A stretch of 56,105 nucleotides of DNA, from positions 1 through 56,105 of the forward strand of contig QIAN01000494.1 in assembly GCA_003225005.1 (NCBI GenBank). The letters are read 5' to 3'. Origin of the DNA: Acidobacteriota bacterium. GTDB lineage: Bacteria; Acidobacteriota; Terriglobia; Terriglobales; Acidobacteriaceae. Below are positions 32,696 through 42,862 of this stretch, one piece after another (the stretch's first letter is position 1; each line of letters begins with the position of its first letter). The notes below the pieces were generated by a model. It was not told the origin of the DNA. It was given only the letters and a program-made list of their open reading frames with translations, and searched no databases. A program made the position numbers and the translations under genes.

Positions 32696-34072
32696 TTGAG
32701 TTTGCAAGCCTTCGTCGCTCGCAGGGTAATCACTCCCGACGGAATTCGCTCGGCCGCCGTACTGGTTAAAGGCGAGCAAATCCAGGCTATTGTCTCCCCT
32801 GATCAAGTACCTGCCGAGGACTGCAAAGTTCATGATTTCGGCCAAGCGGCCATTCTTCCGGGGCTCGTCGATTCGCACCTGCATATCAACGATCCCGGTC
32901 ACGCAGAGTGGGAGGGATTCGAAACTGCAACCCGGGCCGCGGCGGCAGGTGGATACACATTGCTTGTCGATATGCCCCTGAACTGCCTTCCCGCGACTAC
33001 GACTGTCGCCGCGCTTGAGGCCAAGCGTGCGGCTGCACAAGGCAGATGCCTCGTCGATTGGGCGGCGTGGGGCGGGGTCGTCCACGATAACCAAAGTGAC
33101 ATCGAAGCTCTCGCTACTTCAGGTGTTCGTGGGTTCAAATGCTTTCTGGTCAACCCTGGTATCGATGGCTTCACCATGGTCACGGAGCCGCAATTGCGAT
33201 CGGCCCTACCTCACGTCGCCCGGGCTGGCCTGCCGCTCCTGGTGCACGCGGAACTTCCCGGTCCCATTGATCGGGCGACGGAGGCGTTGGCTAGTGCCGA
33301 TTGGAGCTGTTACTCGACGTATCTTCAGTCGCGGCCCGACGATGCGGAACTGGCTGCCATCCGGTTGATGCTTTCGCTGTGTCGCGAATACGGCTTTCGT
33401 TTGCACATCGTCCATCTCTCGACCAGTCAAGCACTTCACGAACTGCGCGTTGCGCGGTCCAACGGACTTGCGGTAAGCGTGGAGACCTGCCCGCACTATC
33501 TGCACATGTGCGCGGAAACCATCGCGAACGGAGCGACGTTGAGCAAATGTGCGCCGCCGATTCGCAGCCGTGAAAATTGCGAGAGATTGTGGCAGGGCCT
33601 TAGAGATGGGACGATCGATCTGGTGGTGACCGACCATTCTCCGTGCCCTCCGGCTTTGAAGCGTCTCGCGGAGGGCAATTTCCGAAGCGCCTGGGGCGGT
33701 ATTGCAAGCCTTTCAGTAGCTCTGCCGCTGATGTGGAGTGAGGCAAGCCGGCGAGGATTCACATTGTGCGATGTGGCACGCTGGATGGCAGCGGCCCCGG
33801 CCCGACTGGCCGGTTGTGACACGCGCAAGGGCCGGATTGCCGCGGGGTGTGATGCAGACTTCGTCGTGTTCGATCCCGACCGCGAATTCATTGTGACAGA
33901 AGATAGATTGCACTACCGGCATCCGGTCTCTCCCTACCTGGGAGAAACGCTACGCGGGGTGGTGAAGGCTACCTATCTGCGAGGGAGTCCCGTCTTTGCT
34001 GAAGGAGAATTTCCCGGTGAGCCTGGCGGACGTGAATACGCCGCGAATACAAGTCGGCAATCAACCACGTAA
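32696..34072 (+). CDS. allB: Allantoinase
   Basis: AAGGAG lies 8 bases before the TTG start at 32696. This 458-residue amidohydrolase opens the operon. Metal and catalytic residues are DSHLHIND (His 60 and 62 by count), the carboxylated Lys in GFKCFL (about 147), VHAE (about 185), HIVHLSTS (about 240) and VVTDHSPC (about 312). It hydrolyses (S)-allantoin to allantoate. It stands first in the operon although it acts late, and is followed by the three xanthine dehydrogenase genes after 133 bases. Dihydropyrimidinase relatives differ at the GFKCF and DHSPC segments, so allantoinase is the best reading. Confidence 0.9.
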   Translation: MSLQAFVARRVITPDGIRSAAVLVKGEQIQAIVSPDQVPAEDCKVHDFGQAAILPGLVDSHLHINDPGHAEWEGFETATRAAAAGGYTLLVDMPLNCLPATTTVAALEAKRAAAQGRCLVDWAAWGGVVHDNQSDIEALATSGVRGFKCFLVNPGIDGFTMVTEPQLRSALPHVARAGLPLLVHAELPGPIDRATEALASADWSCYSTYLQSRPDDAELAAIRLMLSLCREYGFRLHIVHLSTSQALHELRVARSNGLAVSVETCPHYLHMCAETIANGATLSKCAPPIRSRENCERLWQGLRDGTIDLVVTDHSPCPPALKRLAEGNFRSAWGGIASLSVALPLMWSEASRRGFTLCDVARWMAAAPARLAGCDTRKGRIAAGCDADFVVFDPDREFIVTEDRLHYRHPVSPYLGETLRGVVKATYLRGSPVFAEGEFPGEPGGREYAANTSRQSTT

Positions 34073-34205: not shown

Positions 34206-36485
34206 ATGAGCAGCGATCGGATCGTTGGCAAGTCGGTTCCGCGCAAAGAGGGACGCGACAAGGTAACCGGAAGATCTAAGTACGTCGATGATATGGTTCT
34301 GCCAGATATGCTGTTCGGAGCAACCGTTCGCAGCCAGATTCCCCGCGGCCGGATCAGAAAGATCACGTTCGCTCCTGGAATTGCCTGGGATGAATTCGTG
34401 ATCGTTTCCGCGAAAGATATTCCGGGGAAGAATTGCATCGCGTTGATCGGGGACGATCAGCCATGCCTGGCGAATGAATTCGTGAACCATCCCGAGGAAC
34501 CCATCCTGTTGTTGGCTCATCCCGACTGCCATGTTCTCCCCAAGGCCGTTGAAGCGGTATCGATCGAATACGAGCCTTTGCCCGCCATCTTCACAATTGA
34601 ACAAAGCGAGCGCCGATCCGAAATTATCTGGGGCGAGGACAACATTTTCAAAACCTATTTGATCGACAAAGGTGATCTCGATGGCGTGTGGGACAAGGCC
34701 GACCACATCGTGGAAGGCGAATATACGACCGGGGCACAGGAGCAACTTTATATCGAAAATAACGGGATGATCGCGGCCTTTGATGCCGCCGAGGGAATCA
34801 CGGTATGGGGCTCGCTGCAGTGCCCTTACTACGTTCACAAGGCACTGATGACTCTGTGCGATTTGCCCGCGGAAAAAGTTCGTGTGGTGCAGATGGAGAC
34901 CGGAGGAGCTTTCGGCGGGAAGGAAGAATATCCGTCGATGATCGCCGCTCATGCTGCGCTGCTGGCGATCAAGTCCGGAAAACCCGTGAAGATTATTTAT
35001 GACCGCATGGAAGATATGGCGGCGACTACCAAAAGGCATCCCTCGCGCACGCGCCACCGGACGGCCGTCAGCAAGGACGGCAAGATTTTGGGCGGAGAGA
35101 TCGACTTCACGATTGACGGCGGAGCGTACCTCACGCTGTCACCCGTCGTGCTTTCCCGCGGGGCAATTCACGCGGGTGGGCCGTACTACTGGCCGAGTGT
35201 TCGTATTCACGCGAAGGCAGTTGCGACCAATGCGCCGCCCCATGGAGCTTTTCGTGGCTTTGGAGCGCCGCAGAGCCTGTTTGCAGTGGAGCGGCACATG
35301 GATCGCATCGCCCGAGCGCTAGGCCTTTCTCCCGTTGAGATCCGCCGCCGGAATTTTCTGCAGCCGGGACAGGACACCACCACAGAACAGGTTGTGCGCG
35401 AACCGATCGATCTCGGGAAGCTCCTTGATCGCGCACTGGAGTTTTCCGACTATCACGCCAAGAAACAGCGCTTCGCAAACGAGAGTCGAGTCGGCGCAAC
35501 CAGGAAAGGCATGGGCATTGCTGCGTTTCTGCACGGTGCAGGTTTCACAGGTTCAGGCGAGCGCTATCTGAGTTCCGTAGTCGGTGTAGAAGGTTGTGCC
35601 GACGGCCATGTGCGCGTGCTGGTTTCGAGCACAGAATTTGGTCAGGGAACAAAAACTGTTCTCAGCCAGATTGCGGCTGAAGCTCTCGGCCTGCCCTACG
35701 AGAACGTCACCATGGCCCAGCCGGATACTTTGGAAGTTCCCAACAGCGGTCCGACCGTAGCCTCGCGCACGGTAATGGTGGTTGGGAAATTGGTGCAGTC
35801 CGCGGCTTTGGGGATTCGGCAAACACTGATTTCGTCCAACTTGCTACGTGAGGCCTATACCGCAGACGAGTTTCGCGCCGCCTGTCAGCACTATGCGGCT
35901 GCGCATGGCGAATTCCGGTCCTGGTCGCGCTACGAGGCGCCCAGCGATATTTTCTGGGACGATCAAAAATATCGAGGAGAAGCCTACGCGGCGTTTGCCT
36001 GGGCGGTCTACATTGCGGAAGTCACGGTTGACCTGACGACGTACAGCGTATCGGTGGACGACTTCGTGGCACTCCAGGAAGTTGGCAAAGTTCTGCATCC
36101 GCTTCTGGCGAGGGGACAAATCATCGGCGGCATTGCCCAAGCGATCGGATTCAGCCTTTATGAGAAGGTGGTTTGGCAAAACGGACGCATGCAAAACAGC
36201 CAGATGACCAATTACATTATGCCAACTTCGACCGACCTGCCTCCGACTCGGGTGTTCTTCGAAGAGCTAGGGAATGTCTACGGAGCGTATGGTGCGAAGG
36301 GCATCGGCGAGCTTCCGATGGACGGTCCTGCCCCGGCAATTGTTGGCGCGGTGGAAGACGTGCTCGGAGTTCCCTTCGATTCCATTCCACTGCTTCCGGA
36401 AGACATCGTGGAGGCGCTGGACAAAGATGCGCTCGCCGCTTCGGCGCAAGATAGCCGCGTGACTTCCACAGGCGTAGTGCGATGA
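34206..36485 (+). CDS. Xanthine dehydrogenase, molybdenum-binding subunit
   Basis: AGGGAG precedes the ATG at 34206. The 759-residue chain has the N-terminal fold-a/b domain (DKVTGRSKYVDDMVLPDMLFG) and the molybdopterin region: METGGAFGGKEEYPS, APPHGAFRGFGAPQ, STEFGQGTKTVLSQIA and the C-terminal active-site loop GAKGIGELPMDGPAPAI with its Glu. It catalyses hydroxylation of hypoxanthine and xanthine to urate, with the [2Fe-2S] and FAD subunits encoded next by 4-base ATGA overlaps. The subunit order Mo, FeS, FAD is unlike the common FAD-first order. No XdhC-type cofactor-loading chaperone is in the window. Confidence 0.92.
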   Translation: MSSDRIVGKSVPRKEGRDKVTGRSKYVDDMVLPDMLFGATVRSQIPRGRIRKITFAPGIAWDEFVIVSAKDIPGKNCIALIGDDQPCLANEFVNHPEEPILLLAHPDCHVLPKAVEAVSIEYEPLPAIFTIEQSERRSEIIWGEDNIFKTYLIDKGDLDGVWDKADHIVEGEYTTGAQEQLYIENNGMIAAFDAAEGITVWGSLQCPYYVHKALMTLCDLPAEKVRVVQMETGGAFGGKEEYPSMIAAHAALLAIKSGKPVKIIYDRMEDMAATTKRHPSRTRHRTAVSKDGKILGGEIDFTIDGGAYLTLSPVVLSRGAIHAGGPYYWPSVRIHAKAVATNAPPHGAFRGFGAPQSLFAVERHMDRIARALGLSPVEIRRRNFLQPGQDTTTEQVVREPIDLGKLLDRALEFSDYHAKKQRFANESRVGATRKGMGIAAFLHGAGFTGSGERYLSSVVGVEGCADGHVRVLVSSTEFGQGTKTVLSQIAAEALGLPYENVTMAQPDTLEVPNSGPTVASRTVMVVGKLVQSAALGIRQTLISSNLLREAYTADEFRAACQHYAAAHGEFRSWSRYEAPSDIFWDDQKYRGEAYAAFAWAVYIAEVTVDLTTYSVSVDDFVALQEVGKVLHPLLARGQIIGGIAQAIGFSLYEKVVWQNGRMQNSQMTNYIMPTSTDLPPTRVFFEELGNVYGAYGAKGIGELPMDGPAPAIVGAVEDVLGVPFDSIPLLPEDIVEALDKDALAASAQDSRVTSTGVVR

Positions 36486-36979
36486 CCGATTCTCGCGAGG
36501 GTCGTGCCAAGGCCGAGATTTCATTTGCGGTCAACGGTGAGCCGAAGACCGTGCATGCTTATCCCATGGAACGCCTGCTCGACGTGTTACGGCAACAACT
36601 CCAATTGACCGGCACGAAAGAAGGGTGCGGAGAAGGAGAGTGCGGTTCGTGCGCAGTGTTGATGGACGGCATACTCGTGAATAGCTGCCTCGTGCCTGTG
36701 CTTCAGGCTGCAGGTTCGAGCGTGATTACGATCGAGAGACTTGCGGCGGGGGGGACGCTGCACGTCCTGCAGAAGGCCTTTCTGGAATGCGGCGGGGCGC
36801 AGTGCGGAATTTGCACGCCGGGGATGATTCTCGCGGCCGTCCACTTATTGAACAAAACACCTGAGCCCACGACGGAAGAAATCCGGGAAGGCCTTTCCGG
36901 CAATCTCTGCCGCTGCACCGGGTACAGCCAGATTATTGACGCTGTGGCGGAAGCGGCGCGCCGCGGGACATCGACATGA
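36482..36979 (+). CDS. Xanthine dehydrogenase, [2Fe-2S] subunit
   Basis: A 165-residue protein with two [2Fe-2S] sites: the plant-ferredoxin-type GCGEGECGSCAV with a later Cys (NSCLV), and the helical-domain pair CGICTPG and CRCTGYSQI. It passes electrons from the Mo site to FAD. The start overlaps the Mo-subunit stop as ATGA, and its own stop overlaps the next start the same way, so the three subunits are coupled in translation. Length and motif spacing are standard. Confidence 0.95.
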   Translation: MTDSREGRAKAEISFAVNGEPKTVHAYPMERLLDVLRQQLQLTGTKEGCGEGECGSCAVLMDGILVNSCLVPVLQAAGSSVITIERLAAGGTLHVLQKAFLECGGAQCGICTPGMILAAVHLLNKTPEPTTEEIREGLSGNLCRCTGYSQIIDAVAEAARRGTST

Positions 36980-38391
36980 GATCGAATCCCTCTGAGTACG
37001 AAATGGTCGCACCCGGCAGCTTGCATGCCATTGTCTCGCTGCTGGCAAAGGAACCGGGCGTGTGGCTTCCAATTGCCGGAGGCACCGATGTGATGGTGCA
37101 ATACGCGGCGGGAAAGCTCCCGGCACGAAGGCTGGTCAGCATCTGGAATCTTCCCGAGTTGCGTCATATTGAGGTCACGGCTGAAGAAATTCGGATCGGT
37201 GCGGCATGCACGTATACCGATCTCCGTAAACACGAGATTGTCGGAAGCGAGTTTCCTCTCTTGCAGAGTGCCGCGAGGTGGACCGGTGGGGTCGCGAACC
37301 AGAATCGCGGAACGATTGGAGGCAATATCGTCAACGCGTCGCCCGCCGCGGACTCGCTACCTGCGTTGCTCGTGTACGGCTCCGAATTGATTCTCGTGTC
37401 GGTCCGAGGCGAGCGGCGTCTGCCCTATGCAAGCTTTCACACCGGTTACAAAAAGACATTGCTGGCGACTGATGAGTTGCTTCAAGCCGTGTGCCTGCCG
37501 CGTCGATTCTCGGGATATTTCACCCATGCCCGCAAGGTGGGAGCCCGCAATGCTCAAGCTATTTCCAAAGTGTGCATCGCCGCTCTGGGTCGCATGGTGG
37601 ATGGTGTGGTTGAAGATGTTCGCATCGCTCTGGGAAGCGTGGCGCCCGTTCCGCTTCGGCTGACTGAAACTGAGCAAACCGTGAGAGGAAAAGCTATTGA
37701 TTCCGAGCTCTTGCTTTTGGCGAGAAAGGCCGTTGCTGCGGAGATCCGGCCGATTGACGATATTCGATCCACCGCGAGGTACCGTGCAGTAGTGGCTGGC
37801 AATCTTGCAGCTGAGTTCTTGAATCGCTTGCGTTCGCAGCGGACGGGCGCGGAACGCGTTGGAGTGCAGGATGTCCTGGCACGATGGAATCGTCTTCCGA
37901 TCGACGAAGCAATGAGAGCGATTCTGCCTTGTTGCGGATCCCAAGCCTGGACGCAGAGGATAGTTGCTCGAAGACCATTCATGGACGAAGCTGCGCTGGT
38001 CGTTGCGTCGGACGAGACGTGGCGCAATCTGACGCGATCAGATTGGATGGAGGCGTTCCACAGTCATCCGCGAATCGGGGAGTCGCGCGCGTCTCAATCT
38101 CTACCAGGTCAGTCTCCGCCAGCCCAGTCTGTAGCCTGGTCGGATCGGGAGCAACGGAGCGTTGAGGGCGCCGACGCTGACACAAAGATTGCTCTGGCGG
38201 ATGCAAATCGAGAATACGAGCGGCGCTTCAATCGTATCTTCATTGTGTGCGCAACGGGTAAGTCCGCACCGGAGATTCTGGAGAGTCTTCGGCGACGCCT
38301 CAAGAACGACGCAGAAACCGAACTTCACGAAGCAGCCGAGCAGCAGCGGCAGATTACAGAAATCCGGCTACGGAAATGGCTTCAAGGATGA
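36976..38391 (+). CDS. Xanthine dehydrogenase FAD subunit fused to OHCU decarboxylase
   Basis: Residues 1-285 are the FAD subunit: LPIAGGTDVMVQY, then NRGTIGGNIVNASPAADSLP and the CO-dehydrogenase flavoprotein C-terminal domain (KVGARNAQAISKV, DVRIALGSVAPVPLR). Residues about 295-471 are 2-oxo-4-hydroxy-4-carboxy-5-ureidoimidazoline decarboxylase: LPIDEAMRAILPCCGSQAW, FHSHPRIGES with the catalytic His, and NREYERRFNRIFIVCATGKS followed by AEQQRQITEIRLRKWL. The two enzymes act two steps apart: xanthine to urate, and OHCU to (S)-allantoin. The linker carries no frameshift. In Bacillus this decarboxylase is instead fused to urate oxidase (PucL). I know of no characterised fusion to a xanthine dehydrogenase subunit. 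Confidence 0.9.
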   Translation: MRSNPSEYEMVAPGSLHAIVSLLAKEPGVWLPIAGGTDVMVQYAAGKLPARRLVSIWNLPELRHIEVTAEEIRIGAACTYTDLRKHEIVGSEFPLLQSAARWTGGVANQNRGTIGGNIVNASPAADSLPALLVYGSELILVSVRGERRLPYASFHTGYKKTLLATDELLQAVCLPRRFSGYFTHARKVGARNAQAISKVCIAALGRMVDGVVEDVRIALGSVAPVPLRLTETEQTVRGKAIDSELLLLARKAVAAEIRPIDDIRSTARYRAVVAGNLAAEFLNRLRSQRTGAERVGVQDVLARWNRLPIDEAMRAILPCCGSQAWTQRIVARRPFMDEAALVVASDETWRNLTRSDWMEAFHSHPRIGESRASQSLPGQSPPAQSVAWSDREQRSVEGADADTKIALADANREYERRFNRIFIVCATGKSAPEILESLRRRLKNDAETELHEAAEQQRQITEIRLRKWLQG

Positions 38392-38732
38392 AACGCATTT
38401 CAACCCACATTGTGGACCTCGTGCTCGGCAAGCCTGCCAAGGACGTGTCTGTGCGACTGGAGAAACAGAATACACCCGCAGATTGGCGGCTGTTGACCTC
38501 GGCACGTACCGATCAGGATGGCCGGTGTGCTCAATTGCTGCCGGAAGGCGAGGATCTCTCCGCGGGAGTTTATCGCTTGAGTTTTGACACCGGGAGTTAT
38601 TACGCGCTGCAAAAAATCGACGCACTGCATCCGGTGGTGGAAGTTACGTTCCTGGCACGAGATGGAGAATCGCATTTTCACATTCCGCTGCTCCTGAGCC
38701 CGAACGGGTATACGACTTACCGGGGAAGCTGA
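38388..38732 (+). CDS. 5-Hydroxyisourate hydrolase (transthyretin-like)
   Basis: A 114-residue transthyretin-fold enzyme. It has the N-terminal STHIVDLVLGKPAKDVSV, a middle LTSARTDQDGRC, SYYALQKIDALHPVVEVTF, HFHIPLLLSPNGYTTYRGS and the diagnostic C-terminal YRGS. The His, Arg and C-terminal Ser expected for catalysis are present. It opens the ring of 5-hydroxyisourate to OHCU, the substrate of the decarboxylase fused to the gene just upstream. The ATG at 38388 is chosen because it overlaps the preceding stop as ATGA, as elsewhere in this operon; an ATG at 38376 is possible. Confidence 0.93.
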   Translation: MKRISTHIVDLVLGKPAKDVSVRLEKQNTPADWRLLTSARTDQDGRCAQLLPEGEDLSAGVYRLSFDTGSYYALQKIDALHPVVEVTFLARDGESHFHIPLLLSPNGYTTYRGS

Positions 38733-38764: not shown

Positions 38765-39583
38765 GTGACCTCCTCAATCCGCGAATGGCTCAACCTCCTA
38801 GTGCGCTGGGTCCACGTTTTTGCAGCGATCATGTGGGTCGGCCAAACCTACTATTTCACGTGGCTAGACGGCCAATTTGGCAGGCTTGAGAAGAACGCCG
38901 CCGCTGACGGTACAAGCTCGTCGGTATGGATGGTCCACAGCGGTGGTTTCTATACTGTCAACAGGCAGAAGGCCTTGACGGTCGGGCCCGAGCAAGTTCG
39001 TTGGTTCCGCTGGGAGGCGTTGATGACCTGGCTGAGCGGAATAATCCTGCTTTTTCTTGTCTACTATTCCAGCAGAGGACTTATTGACGCGGACGTGGCG
39101 AACATTTCTCAGGGGGTCGCCATCGCCATCGGACTAGCTGTGATGGCTGGCGGATGGGTCGTCTACGATCTGGCGGTACGGTCGGCTCTGGGCAGGTCGG
39201 AAGCCGTGTTCGCTCTATTCTCTCTTGTGATGATTGCCGTACTCGCCTTCGGGTTGATGCGTGTGTTCAGCGGACGCGCGGCGTACATCCACCTAGGAGC
39301 CATGCTGGGGACGATTATGACCGCCAACGTCTGGTTCCGGATTCTTCCTTCCCAGCGCAAAATGATTGCTGCGGCGGCAGCCGGGGCCAAGTTCGACGCG
39401 TCCCTGGGCGCCCAAGGCAAGCTGCGCTCCAAACACAATACTTTTATGGCAGTCCCGGTTGTCTTTATCATGATCAGCAATCACTTTCCCGTTGCGACCT
39501 ACGGGAACCGATATGCTTTGGAAGTCCTTGTCGCCCTGGTTCTCATCGGCTGGGGAGCGGCGAAGATTATCCGCGAGGCCTAG
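38765..39583 (+). CDS. puuD: Membrane urate hydroxylase (PuuD type) without cytochrome c domain
   Basis: GGAG stands 8 bases before the GTG at 38765. The 272-residue protein has seven hydrophobic helices, with His-bearing ones such as WVHVFAAIMWVGQTYYF, IHLGAMLGTIMTANVWFRILP and MISNHFPVATYG. KLRSKHNTFMAVPVVFIM is typical of PuuD. PuuD oxidises urate to 5-hydroxyisourate and passes the electrons to cytochrome c rather than to O2. Known PuuD proteins from proteobacteria carry a C-terminal cytochrome c domain (total about 400 residues). Here it ends after the seventh helix, so a separate cytochrome must serve as acceptor. No CxxCH is visible nearby. Confidence 0.88.
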   Translation: MTSSIREWLNLLVRWVHVFAAIMWVGQTYYFTWLDGQFGRLEKNAAADGTSSSVWMVHSGGFYTVNRQKALTVGPEQVRWFRWEALMTWLSGIILLFLVYYSSRGLIDADVANISQGVAIAIGLAVMAGGWVVYDLAVRSALGRSEAVFALFSLVMIAVLAFGLMRVFSGRAAYIHLGAMLGTIMTANVWFRILPSQRKMIAAAAAGAKFDASLGAQGKLRSKHNTFMAVPVVFIMISNHFPVATYGNRYALEVLVALVLIGWGAAKIIREA

Positions 39584-39586
39584 CGC

Positions 39587-40888
39587 GTGGATAAAGCGCG
39601 AATTCATCGCCAGAACCAGAATCTAGTGCAAACAACTGGAACCACAAGTCGCGCAGAGGAAGTCATCGCTCGCTGTAAAAGGGTAGCGTCCTTTACTGAA
39701 GATCCAGATGGCACGCGCCGGACTTTCCTGTCTCCGCCTATGCGTGACTGCCATGGGGAAATTTCCCGATGGATGGAACCTCTCGGTGTTCATGCGCAAC
39801 TGGATGCTGCGGGAAACATCCGCGGAATTTATCCGGCCGCGGCGCCGAACGCGCGGCGCCTCCTGATAGGTTCACACCTTGATACGGTTCCCAACGCCGG
39901 TGCCTACGATGGGGTTCTGGGGATTGTTCTTGCCGTCGCGTTGCTGGAAGAGTTGCATGGACGGAGGTTTTGTTTCGGCATCGAGGTGGTTGGCTTTTCC
40001 GAGGAGGAAGGAGTACGCTTTGGCACCCCATTCATCGGCAGCCGTGCGCTGGTTGGCAGGCTGGATCAGGAACTCCTGGATGCCCGGGATGCGCAAGGCA
40101 TTTCCGTGCAAAAGGCGATCGAAAACTTTGGGCTGAATCCCGAAAAACTTCCTCAGGCTGAACTCGAGAACAATACGCTTGGATACCTTGAATTTCATGT
40201 CGAACAGGGACCGGTCTTGGAGAAACTGAATCTGCCGCTCGCCGTGGTAGAGGCCATTGCTGGTCAGAGCCGATTAGAGTTCACGTTTCGCGGCCGCGCC
40301 AACCATGCGGGCACAACACCCATGCATCTTCGCTGCGACGCGATTGCAGGCGCGGCGGAATGGATCGGCGCAGTGGAGCGCGTGGCTCAGAGAGTCCCAG
40401 GCTTGGTCGCCACTGTCGGAAGGATCAGCGCCAAACCCGGAGCGGCGAACGTGATCGCGGGCGAAGCGTGGCTGACCCTCGACCTGCGTCATAGCTCCGA
40501 CGAGATTCGAACTCGTGCCGTGGTTGATCTCATTCGCCAGGCTGAAGGAATTGCGGCACGACGCGGATTGTCTGTGCGGGAAAATACGCTGTTCGGCCAG
40601 CACGCCGTCGCAATGGATGCGTTCCTCAATGATGAAATAGAACGGGCAATCCTCAAGACAGGATGCAAGCCGCATCGGATGGTGAGCGGCGCCGGTCATG
40701 ATGCCATGATCATGGCGGAAAAAGTCCCTAGCGCAATGATTTTTCTGCGCACTCCCGGCGGCATCAGTCACGATCCCGGGGAATCGGTCGCAGTTGAGGA
40801 CATAGAGAAGGCAATCGAGTGCGGATTGCATCTTCTCGATCAGCTGGCTGCTTCGCCCGAATTTCAAAGAAGGATAAACCGTGCATAA
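39587..40888 (+). CDS. allC: Allantoate amidohydrolase (M20 family)
   Basis: A 433-residue amidohydrolase of the carbamoylase-type M20 family. Metal-site motifs are IGSHLDTVPNAGAYDGVLG, GFSEEEGVRF and FHVEQGPVLEKL. Substrate-loop motifs are GRANHAGTTPM and VSGAGHDAMIMA, followed by the Arg/Ser loop. It hydrolyses allantoate to (S)-ureidoglycine plus CO2 and ammonia. GTG at 39587 starts 3 bases after the PuuD stop. A second M20 gene (41624) shares the fold but is closer to ureidoglycolate amidohydrolase, so assigning which gene does which step rests on motif feel and order; the cupin lies between them. Confidence 0.85.
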   Translation: MDKARIHRQNQNLVQTTGTTSRAEEVIARCKRVASFTEDPDGTRRTFLSPPMRDCHGEISRWMEPLGVHAQLDAAGNIRGIYPAAAPNARRLLIGSHLDTVPNAGAYDGVLGIVLAVALLEELHGRRFCFGIEVVGFSEEEGVRFGTPFIGSRALVGRLDQELLDARDAQGISVQKAIENFGLNPEKLPQAELENNTLGYLEFHVEQGPVLEKLNLPLAVVEAIAGQSRLEFTFRGRANHAGTTPMHLRCDAIAGAAEWIGAVERVAQRVPGLVATVGRISAKPGAANVIAGEAWLTLDLRHSSDEIRTRAVVDLIRQAEGIAARRGLSVRENTLFGQHAVAMDAFLNDEIERAILKTGCKPHRMVSGAGHDAMIMAEKVPSAMIFLRTPGGISHDPGESVAVEDIEKAIECGLHLLDQLAASPEFQRRINRA

Positions 40889-41627
40889 TCTTGGCCGCAC
40901 ACGAAGCTCCCAACAAGCGAATCATTTACTGTTGACTGCCGACGCTCTTGTACGTACGACTCTGCCGGGAATGAAGACGTGCTCCGCAATTGTGCATGTC
41001 AGTCCAGCATTGGGTGCCGGGTTCACGGAGTACACCGCCGAGTTTGAAGCAGGAGGAGAGCTCGGCAGCACGCCGGCGCAGCGCGTCATTTTCGTGATCG
41101 AGGGTGGCGTGAACGTGGAGGTCGGTAGCAAATCAAGCAAATTGGATGCGCGCGGTTACGCCTTTGTTCCCCAGGGATTGCGCCACCGAGTGGTCGCCAC
41201 GAAAGCGAGCCGTGTCGCCGTCATCGAGAAACCTTATCAGACGCTCGATTCGGTCGCGTCGCCACATTTAATAATTTCGAACGAAGATGTGGTTTCCTCC
41301 CATGCGCTCACCGACGATCCCAGCCTGCAGGTCAAATGCCTGCTCCCCGACGAGATGAGTTTCGACTGCGCAGTGAACACCATGGTCTACCAGCCGGGGG
41401 CCTCGTTGAGCATGGTCGAAATGCACGTGATGGAGCACGGGCTCATCATGCTAGAAGGGGGCGGAATTTACCGGCTCGGCGATTCCTGGTATCCGGTGAC
41501 AGCCGGAGACTTCATCTGGATGGGACCATGGTGCCCACAGTGGTTCGGAGCCATGGGCAAGGTGCCGGCAAAATATCTCATATACAAAGACTGGAACCGG
41601 CATCCCCTGGCTGGCCCGCAGCGATGA
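40881..41627 (+). CDS. allE: (S)-Ureidoglycine aminohydrolase (bicupin)
   Basis: A 248-residue bicupin. The first cupin has AEFEAGGELGSTPAQRVIFVIEG and FVPQGLRHRVVA. The second has YQPGASLSMVEMHVMEHGLIMLEGGGIYRLG with the Glu and two His metal ligands, and GDFIWMGPWCPQWFGAMG. This is the AllE type, which releases ammonia from (S)-ureidoglycine to give (S)-ureidoglycolate using Mn2+. GTG at 40881 overlaps the allC stop by 8 bases, and its stop overlaps the next start as ATGA. Length matches the family (about 260). Confidence 0.92.
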   Translation: MHNLGRTRSSQQANHLLLTADALVRTTLPGMKTCSAIVHVSPALGAGFTEYTAEFEAGGELGSTPAQRVIFVIEGGVNVEVGSKSSKLDARGYAFVPQGLRHRVVATKASRVAVIEKPYQTLDSVASPHLIISNEDVVSSHALTDDPSLQVKCLLPDEMSFDCAVNTMVYQPGASLSMVEMHVMEHGLIMLEGGGIYRLGDSWYPVTAGDFIWMGPWCPQWFGAMGKVPAKYLIYKDWNRHPLAGPQR

Positions 41628-42862
41628 GTTTGACCATCGACCGAGATCGCCTGCTGTCCGAAATCGATGAGCTAGCTTCATTCTCTGATGCCGAAGCTCC
41701 TGCCGTTACACGCATCGTTTTCACGCCGACGGATCTTAAGGCCCGCGCATGGGTGAAGGGGCGTTGCGAGAATGCCGGACTCACGGTGCGCCAGGATGCC
41801 ATCGGAAATACTTTCGCCCGCTGGAATGGCTCTGATCCGGCCGCGCCGGTTGTCGGCACCGGCTCGCATATTGACGCCATTCCGAACGCCGGGAAATTCG
41901 ACGGTGTTGTAGGGGTGATGGGAGGGCTGGAAGCGATAAGAGGTTTACAGCAGAGCGGATTTCGTCCGAGGCATTCGATTGAGTTGGTCATTTTTACCTC
42001 CGAAGAACCCACGCGTTTTGGAATCGGATGTCTTGGAAGCAGGCTGCTGTCTGGCTCTCTTTCTCCGGAAGCGGCGAGAAAGCTAACGGAGAACGATGGC
42101 GTCACACTGGATGAGGTCCGCCGTGCGGCTGGTTTCGGAAGCGACCTTGAACGGGTGAAGTTGCCAGGTGGTTACTATGAAGCATTCATCGAATTGCACA
42201 TTGAACAAGGACCGCTGCTGGAGCGCCAGGAAACTCCTCTCGGCATTGTCACGAAAATCGCTGCCCCGGCGAGTCTTCGTATCTTGATCGAGGGCTCTGG
42301 CGGACACGCCGGGGGTGTTTTGATGCCCGACCGTCGCGATGCTCTTTGCGCCGCCGCCGAACTGATTCTGGCGATTGAGAGCGCAGCACGCACCAGCGGA
42401 GCACTTGACACGGTTGCAACCGTCGGTATATGCGAAGTGTTTCCCGGCGCGGTCAATAGCATTCCGAGCCGGGTCCGCCTTAGCGTGGACGTCCGCGACA
42501 CGGATCTTCAACGGCGCGACATAGTAATGCGTGCGATTGAAACCACATGTGATTTGATTTCAGCCAAACGGCAGGTCTCGGTCCACGGCGAGTTGCTGAA
42601 CGCCGACGCGCCCGCGGACTGTGCTCCCGCCGTAGTCGAAGCACTTTCTCAATCCTGCCGTAAGCACGAACTGAACTCTATTCCGATGGTCAGTCGCGCT
42701 TATCATGACTCGCTTTTCATCGCGCGCATCGCCCCGGTTGCGATGTTGTTCATCCCCTGCCGCAATGGATACAGCCACCGTCCCGACGAGTACGCAGCCC
42801 CGGAAGATATCGTGCGAGGAACACTCGTGCTCGCGGAGACTCTGGCGGTATTGTCTAGTTGA
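41624..42862 (+). CDS. Ureidoglycolate amidohydrolase (M20 family)
   Basis: A 412-residue M20 enzyme that starts at the ATGA overlap at 41624. Motifs are GTGSHIDAIPNAGKFDGVVG, IFTSEEPTRFGIGCLGSR, IELHIEQGPLLERQ, GSGGHAGGVLMPDRRDAL and MVSRAYHDSLFIAR. The paired allC-like gene at 39587 differs in these loops. Ending the pathway after the AllE product, it most likely releases glyoxylate, CO2 and ammonia from ureidoglycolate, as the plant and some bacterial UAH enzymes do. No ureidoglycolate lyase is present, which supports this. It closes the operon; the next genes converge from the right. Confidence 0.82.
   Translation: MSLTIDRDRLLSEIDELASFSDAEAPAVTRIVFTPTDLKARAWVKGRCENAGLTVRQDAIGNTFARWNGSDPAAPVVGTGSHIDAIPNAGKFDGVVGVMGGLEAIRGLQQSGFRPRHSIELVIFTSEEPTRFGIGCLGSRLLSGSLSPEAARKLTENDGVTLDEVRRAAGFGSDLERVKLPGGYYEAFIELHIEQGPLLERQETPLGIVTKIAAPASLRILIEGSGGHAGGVLMPDRRDALCAAAELILAIESAARTSGALDTVATVGICEVFPGAVNSIPSRVRLSVDVRDTDLQRRDIVMRAIETTCDLISAKRQVSVHGELLNADAPADCAPAVVEALSQSCRKHELNSIPMVSRAYHDSLFIARIAPVAMLFIPCRNGYSHRPDEYAAPEDIVRGTLVLAETLAVLSS

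Follow-up and report, generated by a model that had tools for sequence, protein, structure and literature searches.

Why would the enzymes predicted to begin and to complete the conversion of xanthine to allantoin be made as one protein? The question is raised by a gene in the window (i.e., the whole 56,105-nucleotide stretch of acidobacterial DNA that was analyzed), where a single uninterrupted frame joins a xanthine dehydrogenase (XDH) FAD subunit to a full-length OHCU decarboxylase, as the initial annotation had proposed. The gene and its parts are as follows:

36976..38391, + strand: XDH FAD subunit-OHCU decarboxylase fusion gene, one frame from ATG to stop, 471 aa
36994..37503, + strand: FAD_binding_5 domain, residues 7-176 (Pfam, 2.2e-41), with AGGTD and TIGGN motifs
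37528..37827, + strand: CO_deh_flav_C domain, residues 185-284 (Pfam, 6.5e-22)
37828..37875, + strand: linker, residues 285-300 (~16)
37864..37866, + strand: GTG codon (V297) where split relatives have their start codon, a probable fossil start
37888..38373, + strand: OHCU_decarbox domain, residues 305-466 (Pfam, 1.8e-41)

All three Pfam domains scored above cut-off and were nearly full-length. The OHCU_decarbox family (PF09349) matched at 142.7 bits (cut-off 24) over positions 1-155 of its 155-position profile, so that the C-terminal assignment, on which the proposed fusion depended, held over the whole domain. The C-terminal half also exceeded the NCBIfam cut-offs of PRK13798 (169.6 bits; cut-off 124) and UraD_2 (164.7 bits; cut-off 139.4), and its relatives in the PDB included OHCU decarboxylases (5uou, 3o7h, 2q37, and 2o70), in all of which a His is aligned with H364. 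H364, E392, and Q393 were kept in 27/27 fused and 24/24 split rows of the alignment, and we take H364 and E392 to be the conserved active-site His and Glu of OHCU decarboxylase, with a catalytic role. For the first half, PDB relatives included CO dehydrogenase and XDH flavoprotein chains. Its best NCBIfam match was the XdhB equivalog model NF043083, yet the score of 199.3 bits fell under the cut-off of 310, and so this half is classed as XDH-like by context and not as an XdhB equivalog. From its domains and gene context, we name the N-terminal 284 residues as the probable FAD subunit of a xanthine dehydrogenase built from three subunits. It shares FAD_binding_5, CO_deh_flav_C, and neighboring Mo and FeS subunit genes with FAD subunits of the XdhB/PucC type (and the FAD half of XdhA, 1jro_A) but differs from them in its extra C-terminal enzyme domain and in lying under the XdhB cut-off. 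An AlphaFold model of the fusion (mean pLDDT 61.3, 10 sequences) was too poor to inform on assembly.

The FAD subunit part is encoded beside the genes for the other two subunits, within a cluster of purine genes:

32696..34072, + strand: allantoinase (TIGR03178, over cut-off)
34209..36485, + strand: XDH molybdopterin (Mo) subunit, taken from an ATG (frame listed from 33996)
36482..36979, + strand: XDH 2Fe-2S (FeS) subunit, with 4-nt overlaps with both the Mo subunit gene and the fusion gene
38376..38732, + strand: 5-hydroxyisourate (HIU) hydrolase, 16-nt overlap with the fusion gene
38765..39583, + strand: PuuD-type urate oxidase, 272-aa membrane domain (positions 3-260 of the 295-position Urate_ox_N profile)
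39587..40888, + strand: allantoate amidohydrolase (NF006775, over cut-off)
40881..41627, + strand: (S)-ureidoglycine aminohydrolase (TIGR03214, over cut-off)
41624..42862, + strand: second M20-family hydrolase, probably for the ureidoglycolate step

The opposite strand at the cluster holds a permease gene and a deaminase gene. The Mo subunit aligns with solved XDH and with related hydroxylases, and the enzyme is putatively a xanthine-oxidizing XDH. The overlap of the HIU hydrolase gene with the stop of the fusion gene, which had also been pointed out, was confirmed, with the ATG at 38376 lying 16 nt before the end of the stop. A cytochrome c domain was searched for in the PuuD urate oxidase of the window and none was found; the match was likewise absent in the PuuD of G014 (L078) and of L042. 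All full-length PuuD members are stated to carry such a domain (PMC4562309).

The fused domain was the sole OHCU_decarbox match in the genome of the window (G000, listed as 99.73% complete). Both halves appear to be under purifying selection, in fused and split genes alike: dN/dS was 0.11 (FAD) and 0.17 (OHCU) over 45 pairs of the window clade and 0.10 and 0.14, respectively, over 21 pairs of split sisters, all of them rough values from a simple pairwise count with dS near or above 1. The initial annotation had further suggested that the fusion tethers the decarboxylase to XDH, and this is a fair reading, since both domains are full-length and appear to be kept by purifying selection, and no second OHCU decarboxylase was found in the genome.

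How the two genes came together is indicated by relatives in which they are separate. In 22/27 split adjacent pairs, the FAD and OHCU genes overlap by 4 nt, with the OHCU start lying across the FAD stop. In split genes, the FAD tail and OHCU head together amount to 14-21 residues, and the linkers of fused genes are 12-27 residues long; the range is 20-26 for the window clade and 17-19 for the sisters of that clade that are split (G031, G014, and G756). At the position of the old start codon, an NTG codon occurs in 15/27 fused genes, while at the eleven other linker positions (-12 to -1) NTG was found in 0-6 of the 27. Three fused genes added later had no NTG at the old start, giving a total of 15/30. 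In a concatenated FAD+OHCU tree of 51 rows, there were 8 changes between the fused and split states (bootstrap, 8-8; 8 forced by starred branches), and in a 60-row tree, where 30 fused rows fell into 10 groups, there were 10 (10-10; 7 forced). Single-domain trees gave 8 changes each, with starred branches forcing only 4 (FAD) and 2 (OHCU). These counts come from parsimony on an unrooted tree, by which alone gain and loss are not separable; the shared 4-nt overlap together with the NTG codons favors repeated gain over loss. We infer that the fusion arose repeatedly and convergently from split ancestors. The trees left out relatives whose OHCU gene is not adjacent to FAD (G051, G190, G455, and G1037), and rows were dropped as duplicates (L032 and L033, the same loci as G614 and G677), for a damaged FAD gene (G029), as fragmentary (G566, G621, and G750), for a start motif that was not found (G1102), and for want of an OHCU gene in the stretch (G067, G260, G524, G692, G723, G746, G1070, and G1097). 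Families f1 and f7 are interleaved on the tree, which suggests operon transfer or misbinned contigs.

Taken together, the gene probably encodes a bifunctional subunit, FAD subunit plus OHCU decarboxylase, with fixed stoichiometry and co-localization as its effect. The ancestral state would have been split genes with the 4-nt stop/start overlap, and in each fusion a small indel near the overlap would have removed the FAD stop and placed both genes in one frame. The chain would be made as one protein and join the Mo and FeS subunits, so that the decarboxylase would hang on the xanthine dehydrogenase complex in a 1:1 ratio, the ~16-residue linker holding what is predicted to be the cell's OHCU decarboxylase, the maker of (S)-allantoin. 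The likely benefit would be that the enzymes opening and closing the route from xanthine to allantoin are kept together in fixed proportion.

A considerable alternative, to which we give real weight without preferring it, is that the fusion is neutral, i.e., that, given the 4-nt overlap and tolerant termini, a single indel readily joins the genes in frame and that the fused enzymes perform no better than separate ones. The similarity of the fused linkers to the combined split tail and head, with little added, is what would be expected in this case. Moreover, many lineages (30/60 rows) are still split, and OHCU decarboxylase is elsewhere fused to other partners, namely allantoicase (6/49 OHCU genomes) and allantoinase (G211 and G968). 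Other junctions of the same operon, however, speak against mere ease of joining. In our survey of 66 loci (L032 and L033 counted twice), the FAD/OHCU junction was fused in 29/56, a fraction that includes L033 and the G029 fragment and is inflated because the choice of loci favored fused ones. The FeS/FAD junction was fused in 0/63 loci, and this is a telling control, since the same 4-nt overlap occurs there in 43/63 and natural FeS-FAD chains are known (1jro_A; TIGR02963). Fusion was also found in 0/59 loci at the OHCU/HIUH junction, in 0/30 at UGAH/M20b, and in 0/27 at AAH/UGAH; at Mo/FeS, a single case in 64 (G756) had undetermined bases where the Mo match ends and was not counted. Furthermore, the fused state has lasted, persisting in clades of 10, 7, 3, and 3 rows of the 60-row tree.

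It is unlikely that the gene yields two products, with a start codon inside the linker giving rise to free OHCU decarboxylase as well as the fused chain. ATG, GTG, or TTG does stand at the old start in 9/27 fused genes, GTG being the codon in the window; however, the start is not conserved, since GTG is present in only 3/10 members of the window clade and the others have GCG, GTA, ACA, GAC, or CTG. An internal start was therefore rejected as a conserved feature.

A role in substrate channeling, by which unstable HIU and OHCU would be converted before they racemize, had been offered in the initial annotation as a possible consequence of the fusion, and it is improbable on the present evidence. 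The intermediates are indeed short-lived (half-lives of 7.2 min for HIU and 9.6 min for OHCU are given in PMC4562309), and in 59 loci the gene after the OHCU part encodes HIU hydrolase (for which there was no match in L055, L057, L061, and L062). However, urate oxidase and HIU hydrolase, which act in between, are encoded by separate genes, and the OHCU/HIUH junction, where the enzymes are consecutive, is fused in 0/59. Fused rows also differ in their urate oxidase, which is membrane PuuD in 13/27 and the unrelated soluble uricase in 14/27, and elsewhere OHCU decarboxylase has other upstream neighbors as its fusion partner. Since two enzymes intervene and either type of urate oxidase accompanies the fusion, intermediates are unlikely to pass directly from one fused active site to the other. 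A link of the fusion to one type of urate oxidase was considered and not seen, the split rows having PuuD in 8 and uricase in 13, with 3 too short to tell.

An assembly or sequencing error that joined two adjacent genes is almost certainly not the explanation, and was rejected: many source records are titled MAG and the split genes directly adjoin one another, but the open frame is common to the window and nine related species (75-81% identity) and is found in few-contig genomes of other genera (e.g., G096, about 10 contigs), so that independent genomes carry it. The same frame was present in 8/36 congeners at 62-80% identity, full-length in further genera of the family (398 genomes searched), and, among 200 genomes of the class, in two more families (f5 and f7), which disposes of the assembly join that had been the initial caveat. 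In an evenly drawn class sample of 200 genomes, 6 were fused (G000, G096, G253, G1053, G1103, and G1112) and, among those examined, at least 8 were split and adjacent (G014, G1013, G1058, G1085, G1094, G1100, G1102, and G1114), the latter count excluding some FAD-bearing genomes (such as G1043, G1049, G1061, and G1079). Outside the phylum, the search for the fusion covered plasmid records and the phylum of G773 (L036, record titled Polyangiaceae) only. Among 578 matching plasmid records, none matched over 80% of the query at one place. Of 187 genomes in the phylum of G773, 47 carry OHCU decarboxylase, and the FAD-OHCU frame was seen in 0/21 loci examined (20 plus L146, mostly picked for long frames). 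Two further records are of note in their own right. L030, titled Betaproteobacteria, has the same operon, including a fusion of 68% identity, and represents a mislabeled record or a transfer. In G029 (L084:2864-6785), a segment is missing from both the Mo gene and the FAD gene, each of which also changes frame, while the OHCU part is intact, reflecting decay or an assembly fault.

OHCU decarboxylase has become fused to several of the genes that precede it. It occurs in 49/396 genomes of the window's phylum, and the frames longer than 400 aa in these 49 comprised 3 FAD-OHCU, 6 allantoicase-OHCU (by Pfam), and 1 allantoinase-OHCU (G211) fusions. The last (L067:3423-5522) is 700 aa long and has a one-frame relative, 52% identical, in G968. 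In the phylum of G773, 15 of the 21 loci examined, mostly picked for long frames, had allantoicase and OHCU decarboxylase in a single frame. Separately, in G051, a relative from the same class and the sole genome of its family in the sample, the FAD subunit and allantoinase form a single frame of 772 aa (L077:4986-7301).

Naming PucL as the known fusion, as the initial annotation did, was incomplete, for plant TTL and allantoicase-OHCU decarboxylase also exist. Bacillus PucL, an OHCU decarboxylase-urate oxidase with the OHCU domain N-terminal and a partner that acts two steps earlier, resembles the window fusion in that OHCU decarboxylase is joined to another enzyme of the urate pathway. Allantoicase-OHCU decarboxylase (NF010371/PRK13797, listed as allantoicase) likewise has a C-terminal OHCU part on the product of the upstream gene; its partner, however, is allantoicase, a later step of the pathway, and not the XDH FAD subunit. 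Plant TTL, an OHCU decarboxylase-HIU hydrolase fusion according to PMC2834698 and PMC3646786, is also a natural bifunctional OHCU decarboxylase, but in it, as described in PMC2834698, consecutive enzymes are joined and the OHCU domain is N-terminal. In an open-access library, we found no paper on an XDH FAD subunit-OHCU decarboxylase fusion, although its absence in print is not thereby established.

Relatives of this decarboxylase dimerize. A more speculative idea, which we hold only tentatively and think rather doubtful, is that selection has repeatedly docked OHCU decarboxylase onto XDH, some 8-10 times in one class, to give an XDH-centered, allantoin-forming assembly in which the decarboxylase, if it dimerizes as well, could link XDH complexes into larger arrays. 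In any event, the same overlapping pair of genes has apparently been joined many times, which makes this operon a natural replicate experiment in gene fusion. Its split relatives and its unfused overlapping junctions serve as controls, so that adaptive and neutral origins may be tested against each other for enzymes that are not consecutive. Fusion of two pathway enzymes need not imply channeling between them.
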